Assembly: GCA_002778785.1 (NCBI GenBank)
Contig: PEZS01000013.1
Span: 109,472 to 167,302 of the forward strand
Length of the DNA: 57,831 nucleotides
Direction of reading: 5' to 3'
From: Bdellovibrionales bacterium CG10_big_fil_rev_8_21_14_0_10_45_34
GTDB lineage: Bacteria > Bdellovibrionota > Bdellovibrionia > Bdellovibrionales > 1-14-0-10-45-34
This document shows positions 10,422 through 19,263 of this stretch, in pieces; the stretch's first letter is position 1, and each line of letters begins with the position of its first letter. The translations under genes were made by a program, and so were the position numbers. The notes below the pieces were generated by a model that was not told the origin of the DNA, made no database searches, and saw only the letters and a program-made list of their open reading frames with translations.

Positions 10422-10979
10422 GTGCGTCACTTAATTGCGTTCATAGTTTTGATATTACCCACTAGTTTAGCAAGGGCCGAATTGCGATACTTTTTGCTAG
10501 AAATCACGCGCACACCGGCGCCAAAGGCCACTGACCTTAAAGATGCTGCAGGGCCAGAGGGTTCAAGAGAAGTCGCTGCGGAAGACTCTCAAACTTCGCC
10601 CACCCTTGAGACACCAAATGACTCTGCGTCAGCACAAAAACCTACGTTAGATGACTCTGCGTCGGCACAAAAACCTACGTTAGATGACTCTGCGTCGGCA
10701 CAAAAACCTACGTTAGATGACTCTGCGTCGGCACAAAAACCTAGCGCCGCACCGAAACAATCTAAGCGACTTATAACAACTTCGCTCGATCCCATGCAAT
10801 ACAGCCAGTACTACCCTTTACAAAGTGATGAGACACTGCGAATGGTTGACACCTGGATGTGCCGAGGCGCTACTAATCTTCAAGCGCCATGTCCGTCGCC
10901 AAGAACTCGACCTAAGACGCAATCTGCAGGTGAAGCTGCAGTACCACCTGCGACGCTTCAATCTGATCAGCTACAATGA
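10422..10979 (+). CDS. Small secreted protein with tandem-repeat region
   Basis: Predicted 185-aa protein with a clear N-terminal signal peptide (about residues 1-19, ending SLARA). A polar region follows, containing four tandem copies of an 11-residue unit DDSASAQKPTL (first and last imperfect), then a C-terminal part with two Cys (CRG and APCPSP). It starts at GTG 10422; an ATG just upstream runs into a stop. The stop lies 4 bases before the next gene, so the two are probably one transcript. No family was recognised. The repeat region is likely an extended linker in the periplasm. Confidence 0.7.
   Translation: MRHLIAFIVLILPTSLARAELRYFLLEITRTPAPKATDLKDAAGPEGSREVAAEDSQTSPTLETPNDSASAQKPTLDDSASAQKPTLDDSASAQKPTLDDSASAQKPSAAPKQSKRLITTSLDPMQYSQYYPLQSDETLRMVDTWMCRGATNLQAPCPSPRTRPKTQSAGEAAVPPATLQSDQLQ
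10618..10744 (+). repeat. 33-bp in-frame tandem repeat, about 3.9 copies
   Basis: Units start at 10618, 10651, 10684 and 10717. Copies 2 and 3 appear identical; copy 1 differs by one base (GTCAGC versus GTCGGC). The fourth is cut short after AAACCTAG. The 33-bp length preserves the reading frame, so copy number can change without frameshift. Confidence 0.9.
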
Positions 10980-10983
10980 TTTA

Positions 10984-12522
10984 ATGGATATCAAGCCCAC
11001 ATCTACTTTGCGAGCCAATGAGCAAGAGATGCTCAAAGATCACTATGAAAAACTCAAGGTGCTAAGAGAAAAGCTCATCGAAAAAAAGGACGAGATCGCC
11101 AAGTCCTATGAAAAAGACGCAAAAAATCTCGAGCACAAATCAGAAGAGCAAAAAGCTCGCCAAATTGCCGATCACCGAATGGAATTAAAAAAACAGAAGG
11201 AGCTTCTACAAAATCAACTTGAAACCCTTAGGCAGTCTCAAAAGCAGGCGGAGGAGAGTCTCTTTAGGCTTAAGGAGCAGCACGAGGCGCGCATTAATCA
11301 ACAGGTGAAGTCTCAAGAAACAAGAATGGCAGTGCTATCTGACAATTTTGAAGAGCAGACCGAGGCGCAGCAACAAAGAGCGAAAGAGCGCATTAGGGGT
11401 ATTAAATCCAATCTGCAGTCTGAAGAGTCAGCCGTTACAACCAACTACCAAAAAAGGATTGAAGCTCAGAAGGAAGAAAGAAAAAAGGCACTTAACGAAC
11501 TTGGTGCTCGCTACGAAAAGCAGTCTCACCAAATATCTACGCAAAATGAAGAGAGATTGAGAAACCTTCAGGCGAAGGGCAAAACGGAGTACGTAGAGAC
11601 ACAGAGTGAGATTCAAGAGAAGAACGAAATTCTTCGAACAGAATCTGCTCAAAGACTTGAGAGCAATCAAGTTAAGGCCAACCAGCAGATAAAGTCAGAG
11701 CAACAAAAATATCAAAAACAACTCAATGATCTGCAGAAACAAAGTGAAGAGAAGCTTTCACAAAAAGAACGTATAATGAATGAACAGCTAGAAGCTCAAA
11801 AATCAGAACACACAAAAGAGTTTAATAGGGTTCAGACAGAAAAAGAAAAAAGCCTCAATCAACAAAGCGGCAGTCTGAAACACTCAGAACTTAGGCTTAA
11901 AAAAGAAAATGAGAAACAACTTAATAACCTGCGCGAGCAACACAGTCAGAAGCTCGGCGAAGAGCGAAAGACTTATGAGAATCAACTTGGAAAAACAAGA
12001 CAAGTCTACCACGATACGCTTCAAAAGCAGAGACGGGAGTTTTTAGATCAGTACAGTCTCAACCAAACTACAGGGCGAAAAATTTTAGATGAACAAGAAA
12101 TTCTTATCAACCGTGCGGTGAACGATCAAAGACGACGACTTGTCGAGCCCCTGACAACTTTAGAAACTAAAGCTCAAGATAGTTTTTACCGCATGCAAGA
12201 GGTGCCCAGTCGACTCACCGAGTATGACCGAGGGTTTTTATTTGAAGCCGAAATACCAAAGCACGAAGTAGAAAATATTCAAATACGTGTCCAAAAAGAC
12301 AAAATAGTTCTCTCAGGAGAGAGATCCTTTAACGAAGATATCAACGATCCCAGCAGCCGAGTGCAAACCAACACCCATCAAACCTACCGAAAAGAGATAC
12401 CGCTACCTTACCTGGCAAATGAAAATGGAATCACAAAAACCTATGACGCTGAAACTGGATTGACCGAAATTGTTATTCCAAAAATGGGCGTTAGACCGAC
12501 CGCCGAACCCTCAGAAAGTTAG
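10984..12522 (+). CDS. Long coiled-coil protein with C-terminal Hsp20-like domain
   Basis: Predicted 512-aa cytoplasmic protein. Residues about 10-400 are almost entirely charged heptad-like sequence rich in E, K, Q and R. The last 100 residues resemble an Hsp20/alpha-crystallin domain: a GFLFEAEIP strand, an IQIRVQKDKIVLSGERS hairpin, then YRKEIPLP and a closing strand EIVIPKMG. There is no signal peptide. ATG 10984 lies 4 bases after the preceding stop. A longer frame from 10825 would overlap the upstream gene and lacks coiled-coil character, so I rejected it. Small heat-shock domains normally form short oligomeric chaperones; a long coil fused to one suggests a filament or scaffold. That is inference. 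Confidence 0.7.
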   Translation: MDIKPTSTLRANEQEMLKDHYEKLKVLREKLIEKKDEIAKSYEKDAKNLEHKSEEQKARQIADHRMELKKQKELLQNQLETLRQSQKQAEESLFRLKEQHEARINQQVKSQETRMAVLSDNFEEQTEAQQQRAKERIRGIKSNLQSEESAVTTNYQKRIEAQKEERKKALNELGARYEKQSHQISTQNEERLRNLQAKGKTEYVETQSEIQEKNEILRTESAQRLESNQVKANQQIKSEQQKYQKQLNDLQKQSEEKLSQKERIMNEQLEAQKSEHTKEFNRVQTEKEKSLNQQSGSLKHSELRLKKENEKQLNNLREQHSQKLGEERKTYENQLGKTRQVYHDTLQKQRREFLDQYSLNQTTGRKILDEQEILINRAVNDQRRRLVEPLTTLETKAQDSFYRMQEVPSRLTEYDRGFLFEAEIPKHEVENIQIRVQKDKIVLSGERSFNEDINDPSSRVQTNTHQTYRKEIPLPYLANENGITKTYDAETGLTEIVIPKMGVRPTAEPSES

Positions 12523-12627: not shown

Positions 12628-13209
12628 CTAGTTGAAAGTGCCGTCGACCACGTTGTCGAGAGTTTTATTGTGATCGATCGTCCAAACATCGTTCGCAGCG
12701 CCATCTAAATTTGCCTCGGCCACTGCAACAAAAGCATCAGCTTGACCCACCAAATCGACCACACATGTCGGGGCAACCGTAGCAATAGCTGTGGGCCCAT
12801 CAGTGCAGTTGGAATTTGCCTCAGCACAGATCGCCGCTGACGTGTTCCGAGCGGGATCATGATCATCTGCGATTCCGGCGGCCACCATACCAGGTGGATC
12901 ACCACAAGCTCCCCCAATCGCATAGCGATAGACAAGATTGCCTTCTAGTCGAACATTGTTGTAGACAAGGTCTGACGAGTATTGACCCCAGTCATTTAAG
13001 AAAAGCTTCTCCTGAAGATAAATCATGGCCAAATTAGTTCTCGCCTCAGCTTGTCGCGACTTACGCTGATAAAGGTTAAAACTCGGCAGTGCTATGGCCG
13101 CAAGAATCCCTGCGACGGCCACAGTAAACATGATTTCAACGAGGGAAAATCCTCTTATCCCAGCCCCTGTACCCTTCACATTTTTTTCATCCTGATGATT
13201 TTGGTGCAC
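12628..13209 (-). CDS. Type IV pilin-like protein
   Basis: Predicted 193-aa prepilin. After a short polar leader it has the prepilin peptidase site G|FSLVE with Glu at +5, a hydrophobic helix (about 21-45) and a globular domain starting with the RQAEARTNL region common to PilE/PilA-like proteins. Several Cys occur in the C-terminal half. The start is uncertain: GTG 13209 gives an 18-residue leader, while an in-frame GTG at 13179 with GGATGA upstream gives a shorter one. It is the last gene of a four-gene minus-strand pilin-like cluster but is separated from the others by about 200 bp of AT-rich repeat. It could be a pilus subunit or a pseudopilin. Confidence 0.85.
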   Translation of the reverse strand: MHQNHQDEKNVKGTGAGIRGFSLVEIMFTVAVAGILAAIALPSFNLYQRKSRQAEARTNLAMIYLQEKLFLNDWGQYSSDLVYNNVRLEGNLVYRYAIGGACGDPPGMVAAGIADDHDPARNTSAAICAEANSNCTDGPTAIATVAPTCVVDLVGQADAFVAVAEANLDGAANDVWTIDHNKTLDNVVDGTFN

Positions 13210-13406: not shown

Positions 13407-14843
13407 CTACAGGCAAGTCTTCTCATAAATACAAGTAACTCGCCATGTGCTACCCACGGGGTATTCACAGTAGTAAGGCCCATTTCCAATTACGTCAGTC
13501 CACCAAGCCGCCCCCGTGTCCCAAACATACCGCGAGCCGGTACCAGCCTCAAAACACACACCAGTTGGCTGATTGAAGTTTGGTGCAGTGCCTGGATTAG
13601 TGCCAAAAAAGGATGCCGGTGAGGCTCCATAATAGGATGCCGCTCCCGTGTAGCCATAATTCTCAAAGCAGGCCCGTGGGATAGCCGGCGGGCCAACAGC
13701 CATCAACAAACTTTCACCAGTGGAACCAGTCCCGTAGCCCTCTGTGGTACAAGACGGATATGCGAATGCATTGACTGCATGATAGAATTCCGCCCTCCTA
13801 AATGTCCAAGTTCCCGGCTCTGACGGAGGGATACAGTTGAAAGGAGCCCCCGGCTCAACGTTAATTCTTTCGCAAGGAACTCCATTTGAGGACATCAAAC
13901 TTCCACCCTCACAATAACCTGCCCCCGGACACGCTGTAGGCGTAGCTGTTGGACAGCAATAACTTGCATTGCAAACTGCGGCAGATCTTTGTATTCCGTC
14001 TGCTATAAAGGAGCAGCCGCCGGTATCTGTCGCAGAAAGAAGCCCGCCGCTACATTCCGAGCAAGCTGGAGGAGTCATAGTTGGTGGACAAGTTGGTAGT
14101 GGTGCGCACTCCGGCACGCCGTCAGTGATTCCGGTAAGAAGCTCGTTGGGTGCGCAGCGCACCTTTGCTCTTTGCCGCGTGCAGTTTTCACACTGACCTG
14201 TGGCTGCATTATATGTACATCTTAAGTTTTCACAAACTTCGCGTATGTCACCCTCAGAAGCGGTGCAGCTTCTGATTATACCCGCTGGGTTTGTGAAAAG
14301 CTTTAATGGAACAGAAATCACTTCACCCTGTAAACCCTGATTTGGATTAGTCGGAGCGAGCGTCAGTTGAACCGTCGCGGCAAATGCTCTGTCTGGCAAG
14401 GCGGCAGGTGCCGTAACACGTATATCAGTCACTGTGTACTCGCCGCCGTTGGCCATAGACACTCGAGTGGGGTCAATCGACTCACCCATACGTACAATTC
14501 TGCCTGCGTTGACACCGGGATAATTTATTTCGTTAAGAACTAACGGATCTTGAGGGTAATTGAGACCTACAAAATTAGCCACACAACCCTCTTCACTATT
14601 AACGATAGCAGAGAGCGCTTTTCTGATATCAGGCGGTTGCGCTCTCACACTCGCCACTTTTAACTGGCGACTCATCTGAAATACCATCGTTCCAAGAGAG
14701 CCAACCGCAATCAAGCCCAGGCCAGCCGCAAGCAGAGCCTCTATCAAAGAAACCCCGCGCGAGTTTAGACCAGACTTTCTGGCAAGCACGTTCGCTCTTT
14801 TTGCTATGGATAAAACTAAGGTATACAATTGAGCGAAACGCAT
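13407..14843 (-). CDS. Cysteine-rich minor pilin-like protein
   Basis: Predicted 478-aa protein with a prepilin N-terminus (RG|VSLIEALL, Glu at +5) after a leader of about 29 residues, then one hydrophobic helix. A region with the motif EEGCVANF follows, then the shared double Cys module (about residues 185-250) described under findings, then a very Cys-rich tail. The tail has repeated C-x-P-T-type spacing and a lectin-like or EGF-like look, though no named family is clear. ATG 14843 has GGAG 8 bases upstream and overlaps the end of the preceding gene by 28 bp, indicating translational coupling. Surface display at a pilus or pseudopilus tip is likely by analogy with minor pilins. Confidence 0.8.
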   Translation of the reverse strand: MRFAQLYTLVLSIAKRANVLARKSGLNSRGVSLIEALLAAGLGLIAVGSLGTMVFQMSRQLKVASVRAQPPDIRKALSAIVNSEEGCVANFVGLNYPQDPLVLNEINYPGVNAGRIVRMGESIDPTRVSMANGGEYTVTDIRVTAPAALPDRAFAATVQLTLAPTNPNQGLQGEVISVPLKLFTNPAGIIRSCTASEGDIREVCENLRCTYNAATGQCENCTRQRAKVRCAPNELLTGITDGVPECAPLPTCPPTMTPPACSECSGGLLSATDTGGCSFIADGIQRSAAVCNASYCCPTATPTACPGAGYCEGGSLMSSNGVPCERINVEPGAPFNCIPPSEPGTWTFRRAEFYHAVNAFAYPSCTTEGYGTGSTGESLLMAVGPPAIPRACFENYGYTGAASYYGASPASFFGTNPGTAPNFNQPTGVCFEAGTGSRYVWDTGAAWWTDVIGNGPYYCEYPVGSTWRVTCIYEKTCL

Positions 14844-15487
14844 ATCGCATCTCCATCATCATCAAAACCGTTGAGCGCACTTCCAGCCGGGCAGTTCGCG
14901 GTAGCCGGGTTAACTCCTATATCACATTCACCAGTCATCGGATCATAAGCCGCACCTTCAATCGCCCGGCAAACCGACCCCGAGTTGTCTTCGGCTTCAT
15001 AGCAACTTTCGACTACGCCATTCCTCGTAAAAAACTGAAGGGGTATCGAAGTTTGAACCTCAAATAAACCTCCCTGCGGATTTGTTTGTCCTGAAGAAGC
15101 TATAACTAAATTCACCAAAAAGTGATTCGCACCAAGACCACCACCACCAGAGGCAGCGGCTAATGCAATTCTCGTTACTCCCGAGCGTCCCGCAGCAAGT
15201 ACGGGGCTTCCGTTAAGATCGACAATGGCACCAACTCCGGTTGTCCCAGGCCACACCATGTTTCCAAAATTTGCCATACACCCTTCTTCAGTAGAAAGAA
15301 TGGTGCGTGCTAAAAACACTTCCTGCTGCGTTTCGCCTCTATCTATCGCAAATTTTTGAAAGGCAGCCGAGCGCATCACTACATGACTAATCCCAAGCGC
15401 CACAACAGAAAATGCAGCTACCCCAGCAAGCATTTCTACAAGAGTGAAACCACGACCGGCTTTTGTAGTCATTTTTTCTAATAACAT
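14816..15487 (-). CDS. Minor pilin-like protein
   Basis: Predicted 223-aa protein with the prepilin cleavage motif RG|FTLVEML and a hydrophobic helix. It contains EEGCMANFGN, matching EEGCVANF in the gene downstream, and ends with the double Cys module shared by its neighbours (about residues 155-220). ATG 15487 overlaps the stop of the gene before it; an internal ATG at 15472 would give a shorter leader. This is the minimal member of the family: pilin stem plus module without an added tail. It is probably co-expressed and co-assembled with the proteins on either side. Confidence 0.82.
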   Translation of the reverse strand: MLLEKMTTKAGRGFTLVEMLAGVAAFSVVALGISHVVMRSAAFQKFAIDRGETQQEVFLARTILSTEEGCMANFGNMVWPGTTGVGAIVDLNGSPVLAAGRSGVTRIALAAASGGGGLGANHFLVNLVIASSGQTNPQGGLFEVQTSIPLQFFTRNGVVESCYEAEDNSGSVCRAIEGAAYDPMTGECDIGVNPATANCPAGSALNGFDDDGDAICVSLNCIP

Positions 15488-17571
15488 GATTCACCCTGCG
15501 TATCTCTTGTTAGGCGAGGCCCTTCAATGCCATAAATCTGCTGACCAACATAACCCGAAGAGCAACTGAAGGTAAGCGTATAGTTACTTGTAACAGTGTA
15601 ATAGCCTTGGCTACTTGGACAAAGTACGTCAAAATCTTCTTCCTCTTCGTTGTAAATTTGTGACTGACCAACGAGTAGTGTGTATGTCTGCCCATTATGG
15701 ACATAAGTGCAGGCAGGATCGGTGCAACCATATTCTGTAATTATTTGTGAAAATGTACCGTTTACCTCATTGCCCCAGACCCCATTGGTGCATGTTTTTG
15801 TTACGCTTTGAAATTCCCTGACTGTTTGTTTGCCCAATTTAGGCGAAGGACAGCTCTCAATTCGTTCACCAAGATCAATGTCGTAAGTGGCGGTTTGCCC
15901 ACTGTTGTATGTCACGCTCCCACCCGCACTGGTGCTAAGATGACAAGTCGTAGGAGCAGGGTCTTGACACGCATGAGCTGGATCAAAACCATTGGTTACA
16001 GGTCCGGTATCACTTGTAAGAAGAGCTGAGCCAGTAGTCCCATTACATTGCACTATCTGATCCCGAATTTGAAACTCCACACGAATGCCTGTTTTGGGAT
16101 GTGTGCAGGGGTGAATTATGCTGTTTGGATAAGTAGTAAACTGTCGGCTCGTATTGGGCGCCATTGTGTGAGACACGCCGTCTGCTGCCACAAAAATGCA
16201 GTTCTTCGGAGCCGGATCTACGCAGGCACCACTGCTGTCGTAAACTTTGGGGTAGACACATGGTGGAGCACTAGGCCTGCAAGTGCCCGACCTCCTGTCA
16301 CGGAAATACCCAGCAGTGGGACAAACCTCAACACAGGAGCCGCTACTACCACGTCTACCACGTGAGGATACAGCTGTATATCCGCTTGGACAAGCACAAG
16401 TACTGCCATTCCAAGTCGACCCCGCTATCAATGCACACTGGTTTTCGCACGCGCAAGTTGTTGAGTTTCTGGTTTCATTTGCACCGCACGAAGGGTAGCA
16501 ATATCCATTGCACTCTTGATGCCCGCTCGAACAGGTAACGCGATAATCGGCAGAACACATCTTTACACCGCTAACCGTCTTCACTGTCAAAGGGTGCGGA
16601 CAGTAGCAAGAATTGCTTGATGAATTGTAGAGGTATCCGTTTTGACAAGTGGAGGGGGCACTTGGGTTGCTTGGGCCACCTGTAGGACTGCCACTACCTG
16701 TTTGTGGCGGTGCAGTTTCAGACCTGTTCGGATCATAACACTGTCCATTGATTCGCACTTGCCCAGCCAAACACTGAGTCACTGGCGGAGTGTACGCCAG
16801 CGGCGGAGTCACACCTGGTATTCCCTCGGGTGGATAATAGGGCCTGGGCGCTGGAACTGGCATGTCTCTGTTACATAGCGCGTTTCCATTGGCATCGAAA
16901 CCGCCAATTGCCTTGCCTGAGGCGCAGGCTTGGTTTCCAAAAGCGCGAGGCGAAGTTTCGCAGTTACCACTGACGTAGTCGTATCTGCCGCCCATAGCTT
17001 CGCAAACACCTTGGCTAACATCTTCGTTTGTTCCGCAAGAGACAATTTGCCCCCCGGCATCAGTTCTAACTTTTAAACCAAAGTTTCGAGTCCAACCACG
17101 TGAGCCCAAATTATCTTGATTGGCGCGCATATTGATACTTAACTGCGCGACATGCTCGTTGTTAGATGCCGTGGATCTTGCCACGTGCTGGAGCCTCATC
17201 GAGTTGACAATAAAGTTTGGATAGCCCTCAACAAGTTGTCCGCTCTGGGCAATAAACTCACCACCGACAACAGCCCCAGCCGCATCAACATTCGGAAGTG
17301 CGGCCACATTGACTGGATTGGCTGGATTGGCAGAATACGCCGTACCGCCTAAGCTTCCCGTACAAAAACCTTCGACAGAAAGTCTGTTGTTAATTTCTTT
17401 CATAAACGCATCTCTGTCTGTGCGAATCGCAGACTCCGCGTTCGTGCGGGCAAGCTCTACTGGAGCCTTCGTTAAGAAAAAACTCGCCGATGCAATCAAA
17501 GTTAACGCCAACACAGCAATTAAGACGGCCGCCCCTGATTCTGACTTTAATGGACTTGTTCGATTATTCAT
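15478..17571 (-). CDS. Large cysteine-rich PilX-like pilus protein / candidate adhesin
   Basis: Predicted 697-aa protein. The N-terminus (SGAAVLIAVLALTLIAS) resembles the PilX/GspK-type hydrophobic stem of minor pilins and lacks the usual +5 Glu. The motif LSVEGFCTGSL parallels EEGCxANF of its neighbours. The shared double Cys module lies at about residues 172-235. A proline-rich linker and an EGF-like Cys-rich stretch (about 300-455) follow, then three tandem modules of about 78-85 residues (457-697), each with regularly placed Cys and a CxDP-like end. ATG 17571 has GGGAAG upstream; a longer frame to 17655 has no ribosome site. It heads the operon. An exposed, disulfide-stabilised tip adhesin is the likeliest role, inferred from layout. 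Confidence 0.78.
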   Translation of the reverse strand: MNNRTSPLKSESGAAVLIAVLALTLIASASFFLTKAPVELARTNAESAIRTDRDAFMKEINNRLSVEGFCTGSLGGTAYSANPANPVNVAALPNVDAAGAVVGGEFIAQSGQLVEGYPNFIVNSMRLQHVARSTASNNEHVAQLSINMRANQDNLGSRGWTRNFGLKVRTDAGGQIVSCGTNEDVSQGVCEAMGGRYDYVSGNCETSPRAFGNQACASGKAIGGFDANGNALCNRDMPVPAPRPYYPPEGIPGVTPPLAYTPPVTQCLAGQVRINGQCYDPNRSETAPPQTGSGSPTGGPSNPSAPSTCQNGYLYNSSSNSCYCPHPLTVKTVSGVKMCSADYRVTCSSGHQECNGYCYPSCGANETRNSTTCACENQCALIAGSTWNGSTCACPSGYTAVSSRGRRGSSGSCVEVCPTAGYFRDRRSGTCRPSAPPCVYPKVYDSSGACVDPAPKNCIFVAADGVSHTMAPNTSRQFTTYPNSIIHPCTHPKTGIRVEFQIRDQIVQCNGTTGSALLTSDTGPVTNGFDPAHACQDPAPTTCHLSTSAGGSVTYNSGQTATYDIDLGERIESCPSPKLGKQTVREFQSVTKTCTNGVWGNEVNGTFSQIITEYGCTDPACTYVHNGQTYTLLVGQSQIYNEEEEDFDVLCPSSQGYYTVTSNYTLTFSCSSGYVGQQIYGIEGPRLTRDTQGESCY

Positions 17572-17753
17572 TGAACTTCCCAAGGACGTGTCTGAGTCAC
17601 TCGTTAAAATGCGCATGCATGTGACAATACCGTCAATGATTTGTTTTTGGTTCATAACGGTAAGTGTTCGGCAGTCCTGAATAGAGTCTAAACACCTTTT
17701 GGCAGATTTTAGTCAGATGCCTTTAAATTGAAGATGAATGTGTCGTAATGAGA

Positions 17754-18324: not shown

Positions 18325-18975
18325 TTATCCACGCTCATACTCGCAAGATAGGGCCTTTTCATCTGACGGTTGGATTTGCCTTCTTAGGGCGTCCCGACTA
18401 GGAAAGGAATCCAGTTTAGAGTTCATCACGCTTGATTCAATGTCGTTATGACCTAATCCCAATACATGGCCAAACTCATGGGTCAGTAAACTCTCAGAAT
18501 CCAGAACCTTCTTACCTTCTTCAGAATGGACTTCATCTCCGTACCTGAACGCAAACTTCCCGCTGTTGATTGCGATGTCGGCTTCGTTCACCCAGTCTCC
18601 TCGCCATGAAATTACGGTTCGCGCCTGTTCACCGTCCTGGAATTCGCTCCAGGAATCGAGAAAATAGATAACATTTACTCCGTCCCTTGCAGGCCCAGCT
18701 GACTTCACGCGGCCAATAACCTCAAACAACTTGCGGCCAAGGGCCATCTCCCACGCCGCAATACTTTGATAAACCGAGGGAATCGCCTCTTCGGGCACAC
18801 TCTCATCAAGAGCGATCCTTATGGGAAGAGCCGCCTTCCAAGACACTCTCTGCTGATAGGTGTTCTGGATAAACCCGCAAGGCTCCTCAGGGGCCGGAGC
18901 CTGGTTCTGCGTGCATGCAGAGCTTATGTATAAAACGACTATAGCCAGCACATGGCGAATACGTGTAAGTCTCAT
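18325..18975 (-). CDS. Matrixin-like zinc metalloprotease lipoprotein
   Basis: Predicted 216-aa protein with an N-terminal hydrophobic segment ending in a lipobox-like ISSAC (Cys near 21). The C-terminal half has the metzincin zinc-binding motif HEFGHVLGLGH followed by a likely Met-turn (SVMNSK), typical of matrixin (M10)-type proteases. The upstream part (VNVIYFLDSW and the ADIAIN strand) fits the edge strand of that fold. It is probably anchored in the outer membrane or periplasmic leaflet. ATG 18975 is chosen; an in-frame TTG at 18993 is possible, and neither has a strong ribosome site. The protein substrate is unknown. Confidence 0.8.
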   Translation of the reverse strand: MRLTRIRHVLAIVVLYISSACTQNQAPAPEEPCGFIQNTYQQRVSWKAALPIRIALDESVPEEAIPSVYQSIAAWEMALGRKLFEVIGRVKSAGPARDGVNVIYFLDSWSEFQDGEQARTVISWRGDWVNEADIAINSGKFAFRYGDEVHSEEGKKVLDSESLLTHEFGHVLGLGHNDIESSVMNSKLDSFPSRDALRRQIQPSDEKALSCEYERG

Positions 18976-19263
18976 CAGTTTTTGTATTCGCAAAGGTTGT
19001 ACCGCTGGTTCAAGCCAAACCGACTGCCATCTAATATGTTGATATCACTAGTTTATTGGGCTCGGCGGGCCAATTTGATCGCCGTCTCATTACGAGACGA
19101 AAAAACCGCAAACATCAAGCAAGTTACCCGTGTTTCTGGCTAAGTCTTTGATTTTTCGCAAGTTTTTGCGTATACTTTTTTGACAGCCCCCCGACACTCA
19201 GGGGAGTGGTCGCTTCTAAACTGATCCCTCACTCCAAAGCGGTGAGCCTAAGCTGATAACAGG

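Follow-up and report, generated by a model that had tools for sequence, protein, structure and literature searches.

Minor pilins are known to form tip complexes in which a subunit without glutamate 5 (Glu5) is the cap (PMC10191384, PMC9934059), and several described systems resemble the locus analyzed here. The HIJK complexes of type IVa pili (T4aP) and type II secretion systems (T2SS), i.e., PilH-K, GspH-K, and FimU-PilVWX, come from a prepilin operon with one Glu5-less member and are expected at the tip (PMC10191384, PMC9934059). In Streptococcus sanguinis, adhesive modules (vWA, lectin) are grafted on a pilin body, and PilA, PilB, and PilC make a three-subunit tip (PMC8179133, PMC9934059). 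The predator Myxococcus xanthus has Kil Tad tips (KilL/M/N), heterotrimers of minor pilins whose exposed domains vary and in which many disulfides are predicted, and structural analogs of these tips were reported in Bdellovibrio bacteriovorus (PMC12075869). Finally, CofB of enterotoxigenic Escherichia coli (ETEC) is a homotrimeric type IVb minor pilin with Cys-containing C-terminal domains, similar by alignment to TcpB of Vibrio cholerae, which initiates pilus assembly (PMC5207764). The Bdellovibrionota include the classic predators among bacteria. We analyzed a stretch of 57,831 nucleotides of Bdellovibrionales bacterium CG10_big_fil_rev_8_21_14_0_10_45_34 (contig PEZS01000013.1, positions 109,472 to 167,302; hereafter the window) and found that three of its genes, which overlap, are paralogous type IV minor pilins. 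This set works like the known tip systems and is yet distinct from them: it matches no GspH-K or PilV-X model at the cut-off, and its N-termini are of the T4a type, not of the Tad type.

The three genes lie on the minus strand and overlap by 10 nt (725-aa/223-aa) and 28 nt (223-aa/478-aa). The 223-aa protein (GFTLVEMLAGV; 14816..15487 in window coordinates, as throughout) carries a prepilin motif above the cut-offs of both Pfam (N_methyl, 22.9 bits for a cut-off of 21.2) and NCBIfam (TIGR02532, 22.8 for 16.3). In the 478-aa protein (13407..14843), whose module is followed by a 232-residue tail, the class III prepilin motif GVSLIEALLAAG was recognized by eye, and the Pfam score of 11.1 bits is below the cut-off. 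The 725-aa protein (15478..17655) is made of a body, a module, and a long Cys-rich tail, and starts with a hydrophobic, PilX/GspK-like helix (G|AAVLIAV). It has no Pfam match of its own and is assigned to the pilins because it is homologous to its companions. Glu5, which we read from the N-terminal sequences themselves and not from automated calls, is present in the 223-aa and 478-aa proteins and missing from the 725-aa protein. When the 223-aa protein was used as a query against its own 3.06-Mb genome, its only matches were the 478-aa protein (E 2e-9, 30% identity, residues 10-219) and, within the module alone, the 725-aa protein (E 3e-5). Outside the module, the headgroup of the 478-aa protein is similar to those of both others (0/3000 shuffles each), and the headgroups of the 223-aa and 725-aa proteins show no similarity (score of 29 for a shuffle mean of 29.5).

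None of the GspH-K or PilV/W/X models was matched at the cut-off, the closest approach of the 223-aa protein being gspJ at 15.3 bits (cut-off 64.85), and no NCBIfam model matched the 478-aa and 725-aa proteins. General Pfam and NCBIfam scans of the three pilins gave no Tad model, with no direct comparison to KilLMN made. The 223-aa protein had no relative in a collection of genome contigs, and a search with a three-sequence alignment matched one named contig, LNEB01000010, from a Bdellovibrionales metagenome assembled genome (MAG) of the same order of Bdellovibrionota. Promoter and terminator scans gave results at chance level only.

A first-pass annotation, made from the sequence alone, had claimed that these adjacent pilins share a Cys double module: Part 1, with a hydrophobic pair before SC, an acidic stretch, VC, and a Tyr-to-Cys motif, and Part 2, with C-x-x-G and GFD-type motifs. 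The module is real, at positions close to those first given: 16873..17046 in the 725-aa protein (IVSC...C...GGRYDYVSGNC...CASGKAIGGFDANGNALC), 14840..15019 in the 223-aa protein (VVESC...C...GAAYDPMTGEC...CPAGSALNGFDDDGDAIC), and 14106..14279 in the 478-aa protein (IIRSC...C...CTYNAATGQC...CAPNELLTGITDGVPEC), all on the minus strand. The motifs also agree with the annotation, down to the looser Part 2 in the 478-aa protein and the EEGCxANF or VEGFC that follows the stem helix. The 223-aa protein does stop after the module, with its C-terminus 7 residues past it. Over the approximately 58 residues of the module, pairwise alignment scores are 101, 64, and 56, whereas shuffled sequences average 25-28. 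When the Cys were all fixed, these scores were reached in 0, 0, and 1 of 5000 shuffles, and with Cys and Gly fixed they were reached 0, 2, and 4 times. The similarity between the modules is thus above chance even when the Cys are fixed. The highest score is that of the 223-aa/725-aa pair, of which the module is the best-conserved part, since the headgroups of this pair are no closer than shuffled sequences. A 64-column profile of the module retrieved only the three window proteins from their own genome up to E = 10, and searches in Pfam, NCBIfam, PHROGs, and PDB sequences gave no family for the module or the tails. We do not favour a recent homogenization of the modules by gene conversion, as their DNA identity is just 49-59%.

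The bodies of these proteins belong to a larger family. A profile (A2) of 14 bodies with the membrane helix removed has members in 69 of the 141 genomes of the order and in 177 of the 369 Bdellovibrionota genomes. The layout is a prepilin helix, a headgroup with two near-invariant Cys, and an exchangeable tail that starts directly after the second Cys. In the loci that we read, 102 of 103 matches have the Cys that closes the stem helix (CxxN[FL]) and 99 of 103 have the one in the last strand of the headgroup (GxIxxC). The stem-end Cys of the 223-aa protein is Cys70 (EEGCMANF; 15278..15280, minus strand), which has an equivalent in the other two. Two tail grammars dominate, the Cys plug found in the window (C-x3-GG-x-[YFW]-[DN]-...-C) and a fibre type (DGIW...DIFY..G.VGIGT..P). 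There is no dedicated model for the family in Pfam, NCBIfam, or PHROGs, and a literature search, for which subscription papers were mostly beyond reach, returned no description of it or of the fibre-tailed pilin triplets presented below. This pilin family appears to be previously undescribed. Its fixed two-cysteine body and swappable tails amount to a rule by which candidate tip adhesins can be listed without domain models. Some family pilins end in Hint-type domains (L052:1557-3317, PF01079, 1.5e-10; L050:5534-7102, PF14623, 6e-7; L076:2863-4143, by eye), which may perhaps serve self-cleavage.

The module itself is nearly restricted to pilins. A module-only profile matched 58 of 359 genomes of the phylum. 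Among the best 29 loci, 24 have a prepilin N-terminus, 3 more have a pilin body (with a contig start or start-codon problems), and at the remaining two (L135, L141) Part 2 recurs in arrays, with no sign of a pilin. Full-length matches to the double module across Bdellovibrionota number 13, and each lies in a pilin-like open reading frame. The initial picture of a conserved plug with variable display domains needs revision: there is a common connector and the tails do differ, but the plug is not special to this operon. It is better read as one form of the C-terminal element in a phylum-wide family of two-cysteine minor pilins, common to the three proteins at least partly by descent.

The tails of the two longer proteins add modules that are not pilus-specific. 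Residues 486-725 of the 725-aa protein (15481..16200, minus strand) are three tandem Cys-rich repeats of ~80 residues, delimited with a self-profile, and this tail is an orphan in the 141 genomes of the order except for a marginal 44-residue match. The 478-aa protein ends in a Cys-rich domain (13413..13898, minus strand) whose one other occurrence is at the C-terminal end of a lipoprotein-like protein of 826 aa encoded in the same genome (42% identity over 162 residues, E 8e-26). Both the orphan tail and the domain common with a lipoprotein-like protein fit exchangeable display domains. The 826-aa protein (L114:6269-8749, contig 11 of G000) has about eight Cys repeats of ~70 residues before this terminal domain. 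We rejected the idea that these and the repeats of the 725-aa protein are one family, a link that would have joined the two tails (hhalign probability 1.9%).

We favour, with moderate confidence, the reading that these genes code for a type IVa-like pilus tip: an I/J/K-like (PilV/W/X) complex in which the subunits dock through their C-terminal pairs of hairpins, which also bear variable display domains. It builds on the homology of the three proteins, their common module, the prepilin-type N-termini, the family-wide Cys, the near-restriction to pilins, and the exchange of tails. The overlap of the genes, the single tail class of most clusters, the PilA paralogs at two loci, and the predicted order of elements common to the two modelled proteins also speak for it. 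From these we infer the disulfides, the tip position, the docking, the path of force, and the ligand of the following scheme. The three paralogs would be role equivalents of PilV, PilW, and PilX (GspI/J/K), inserted via their N-terminal helices, with the Glu5-less 725-aa subunit as a K-like tip cap. In each of them, the Cys that closes the stem helix would pair with that of the last strand of the headgroup and so hold helix and headgroup together, the proposed pairing in the 223-aa protein being Cys70-Cys162, and this clamp could transmit a pulling force from the tail to the filament. The double module after the clamp, a short helix and two Cys-closed hairpins, would be a collar for mutual recognition between subunits. 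The differing outer domains would project from this collar, the 223-aa subunit would be the collar alone, and the tails would attach to a surface, which is probably that of prey or of some other cell envelope.

Compared with the systems described above, the window set has no GspH-K or PilV/W/X model at the cut-off, gave no H-like member or PilY1 in our searches, and differs from HIJK in that its members are paralogs with a common Cys module and long unrelated tails. In contrast to the vWA and lectin modules of S. sanguinis, its domains are attached by a common Cys connector to bodies of one family; S. sanguinis PilA is small and has no sequence homologs, unlike the window set. The Kil subunits are homologs of TadE/F/G, whereas the window proteins have GFxxxE-type (T4a/T2SS) N-termini. 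CofB is a homotrimer encoded by a single gene, whereas the window has three paralogs in one operon. A Glu5-less member with Glu5-bearing operon partners also occurs in the clusters L058, L066, and L083.

Family genes are often arranged in pairs or triplets, and tail classes, assigned by simple regular expressions, are mostly uniform within such clusters. Tails are of a single class in 27 of the 33 clusters with at least 2 members (permutation mean 9.3, maximum 17 in 5000), and 29 of 62 members find their best tail match within their own cluster (permutation mean 1.2). Some of the matched sets resemble phage fibres. The triplets at L051 (G128:C180) and L157 (G245:C1) each have three matches to PF13884 (E 5e-14 to 1e-20 and 5e-15 to 8e-19, respectively), and the L157 tails, of 355, 354, and 355 residues, are 44-45% identical. 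At L164 (G201:C29:45500-53500), three tandem pilins have tail-collar-like C-termini (tails of 159, 167, and 159 residues), and the one member tested against PHROG matched a tail-fibre family best (E 5e-9), with tail-collar families among the weaker matches. The tails of the L049 triplet (382, 377, and 381) have no library match. Three chains of nearly equal length on three adjacent pilins suggest one common fibre. Such swapping of tails, including phage-style fibres in matched sets of three, suggests exchangeable pilus tips, and the fibre-tailed triplets suggest a testable link between the receptor-binding fibres of phages and the tips of type IV pili.

Pilins with phage-type fibre tails that end in the intramolecular chaperone Peptidase_S74 were found at L051, L157, L064, L077, L078, and L088 (Pfam) and at L158 (motif only). 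Three S74-tailed genes stand in tandem at L051 and L157. We take IPR030392 to be the S74 chaperone domain. S74-type tails on pilins were previously listed merely as 'peptidase activity' (IPR030392, PMC8179133), and S74 domains are trimer chaperones (PMC10769870). The trimeric MAT fibres of B. bacteriovorus, like these fibre-tailed relatives, are phage-fibre-like chains, with 13 of 21 ending in Peptidase_S74 and with mosaic tips (PMC10769870). However, MATs start with a signal peptide and an N-terminal domain of ~130 aa, whereas the relatives have a prepilin helix and a pilin body, and the window proteins have no fibre tail. It is possible, if doubtful, that the three tip minor pilins of Bdellovibrionota jointly build one three-chain structure with one chain each. 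In some species (L051, L157, L164, L049) this would be a trimeric fibre like those of phages, with an S74 chaperone or a tail-collar-like head, and in the lineage of the window it would be reduced to a three-part collar, the Cys double module, with unequal display domains. Against one shared three-chain fibre, the same regular expression finds S74-tailed pilins as single genes at five loci, and these would have to be homotrimers, as CofB is. Recurring tandem triplets of this pilin family were also seen in other families of the phylum (L160, L161, L162, L163, L172). In these triplets two subunits are longer and the third is shorter, with a small tail that looks fibre-like, and the proteins of L160 gave no match in Pfam.

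Several results weigh against placing the three pilins together at a tip. Both the tip location and the contacts between subunits are putative, and the models are of single chains. AlphaFold2 models, made with 3- and 5-row alignments for the 223-aa protein and for residues 28-300 of the 725-aa protein, show the same order of elements: a long helix, a short helix that bears the first Cys, beta strands, another short helix (169-175 in the 223-aa protein), the Part 1 hairpin (179-190), and the Part 2 hairpin (203-218). However, the mean predicted local distance difference test (pLDDT) is a weak 57 in both, and Foldseek found no significant PDB match to this helix-then-sheet arrangement. A shared fold is thus supported, not proven, for two of the three proteins. 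At that low confidence, the module appeared neither as unrelated folds in the two modelled proteins nor as an ordinary domain outside pilin operons. We identified no fourth, H-like subunit. PilY1 (PF05567) was not detected in the genome or, above the cut-off, in 60 relatives, although the control genomes gave no match either. Family members are single genes at 44 of 77 loci (neighbours below the threshold being uncounted), and the best match of the body falls in the same cluster for 28 of 62 members. Bodies thus match within clusters as often as tails do, which implies that duplication contributes and that the matching of tails alone is no proof of co-assembly.

The last point counts for an account by plain tandem duplication, in which the module is the conserved C-terminal end of an ordinary headgroup, maintained by descent and folding constraint, and the pilins act independently. 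Duplication explains much of the matching within clusters, given the strength with which bodies co-vary with them, and it fits the homology of the 478-aa body to both others and the recurrence of the element in single-gene members. Yet it accounts poorly for a 223-aa/725-aa pair that scores 101 over the modules and no better than shuffled sequence over the bodies (29 for 29.5), a conservation of module over body also seen in one pair of L052, and the overlapping genes with matched tail classes suggest co-function. We consider it unlikely. That Glu5 is kept in two of the three proteins would suit minor pilins spread along the shaft, or the piston of a secretion pseudopilus, but the operon has the style of a tip complex, with three genes and one Glu5-less member, and its tails are bulky. 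Besides, contig 13 has a separate GspE-K-like gene order of T2SS type with its own G-K-like pseudopilins, for which reason we rejected the operon pilins as T2SS pseudopilins; a place in a shaft or piston is quite improbable. Type IV filaments are versatile, and large tip pilins can act as DNA receptors, as does ComZ of Thermus, so that the Cys-rich domains might bind DNA, not cells, at the tip of a competence pilus. We give this very little credence, since one tail domain is common with a lipoprotein-like, probably surface protein, and adhesion fits better.

The neighbourhood of the operon adds a possible partner for the tip complex. About 200 nt downstream, on the same minus strand, a gene encodes a 193-aa PilA paralog resembling a major pilin (12628..13209), 60% identical in the mature region to the PilA encoded beside PilC/PilS/PilR-like genes on contig 10. 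It is possibly the shaft or an adaptor for the tip of the operon. The genome hence has two PilA-type major pilins, 60% identical (window 12628-13209 and L116:5988-6626), one adjoining the minor-pilin operon, and they may be alternative shafts. The same strand carries, upstream of the operon, a gene (18325-18993) for a 222-aa secreted or lipoprotein metalloprotease of the matrixin type (PF00413, 2e-7). Positions 10825-12522 encode a 565-aa protein without Pfam hit, in which a long coiled coil precedes a region that by eye resembles an Hsp20/alpha-crystallin domain, and this gene overlaps an open reading frame with a repeated DDSASAQKPTL unit.

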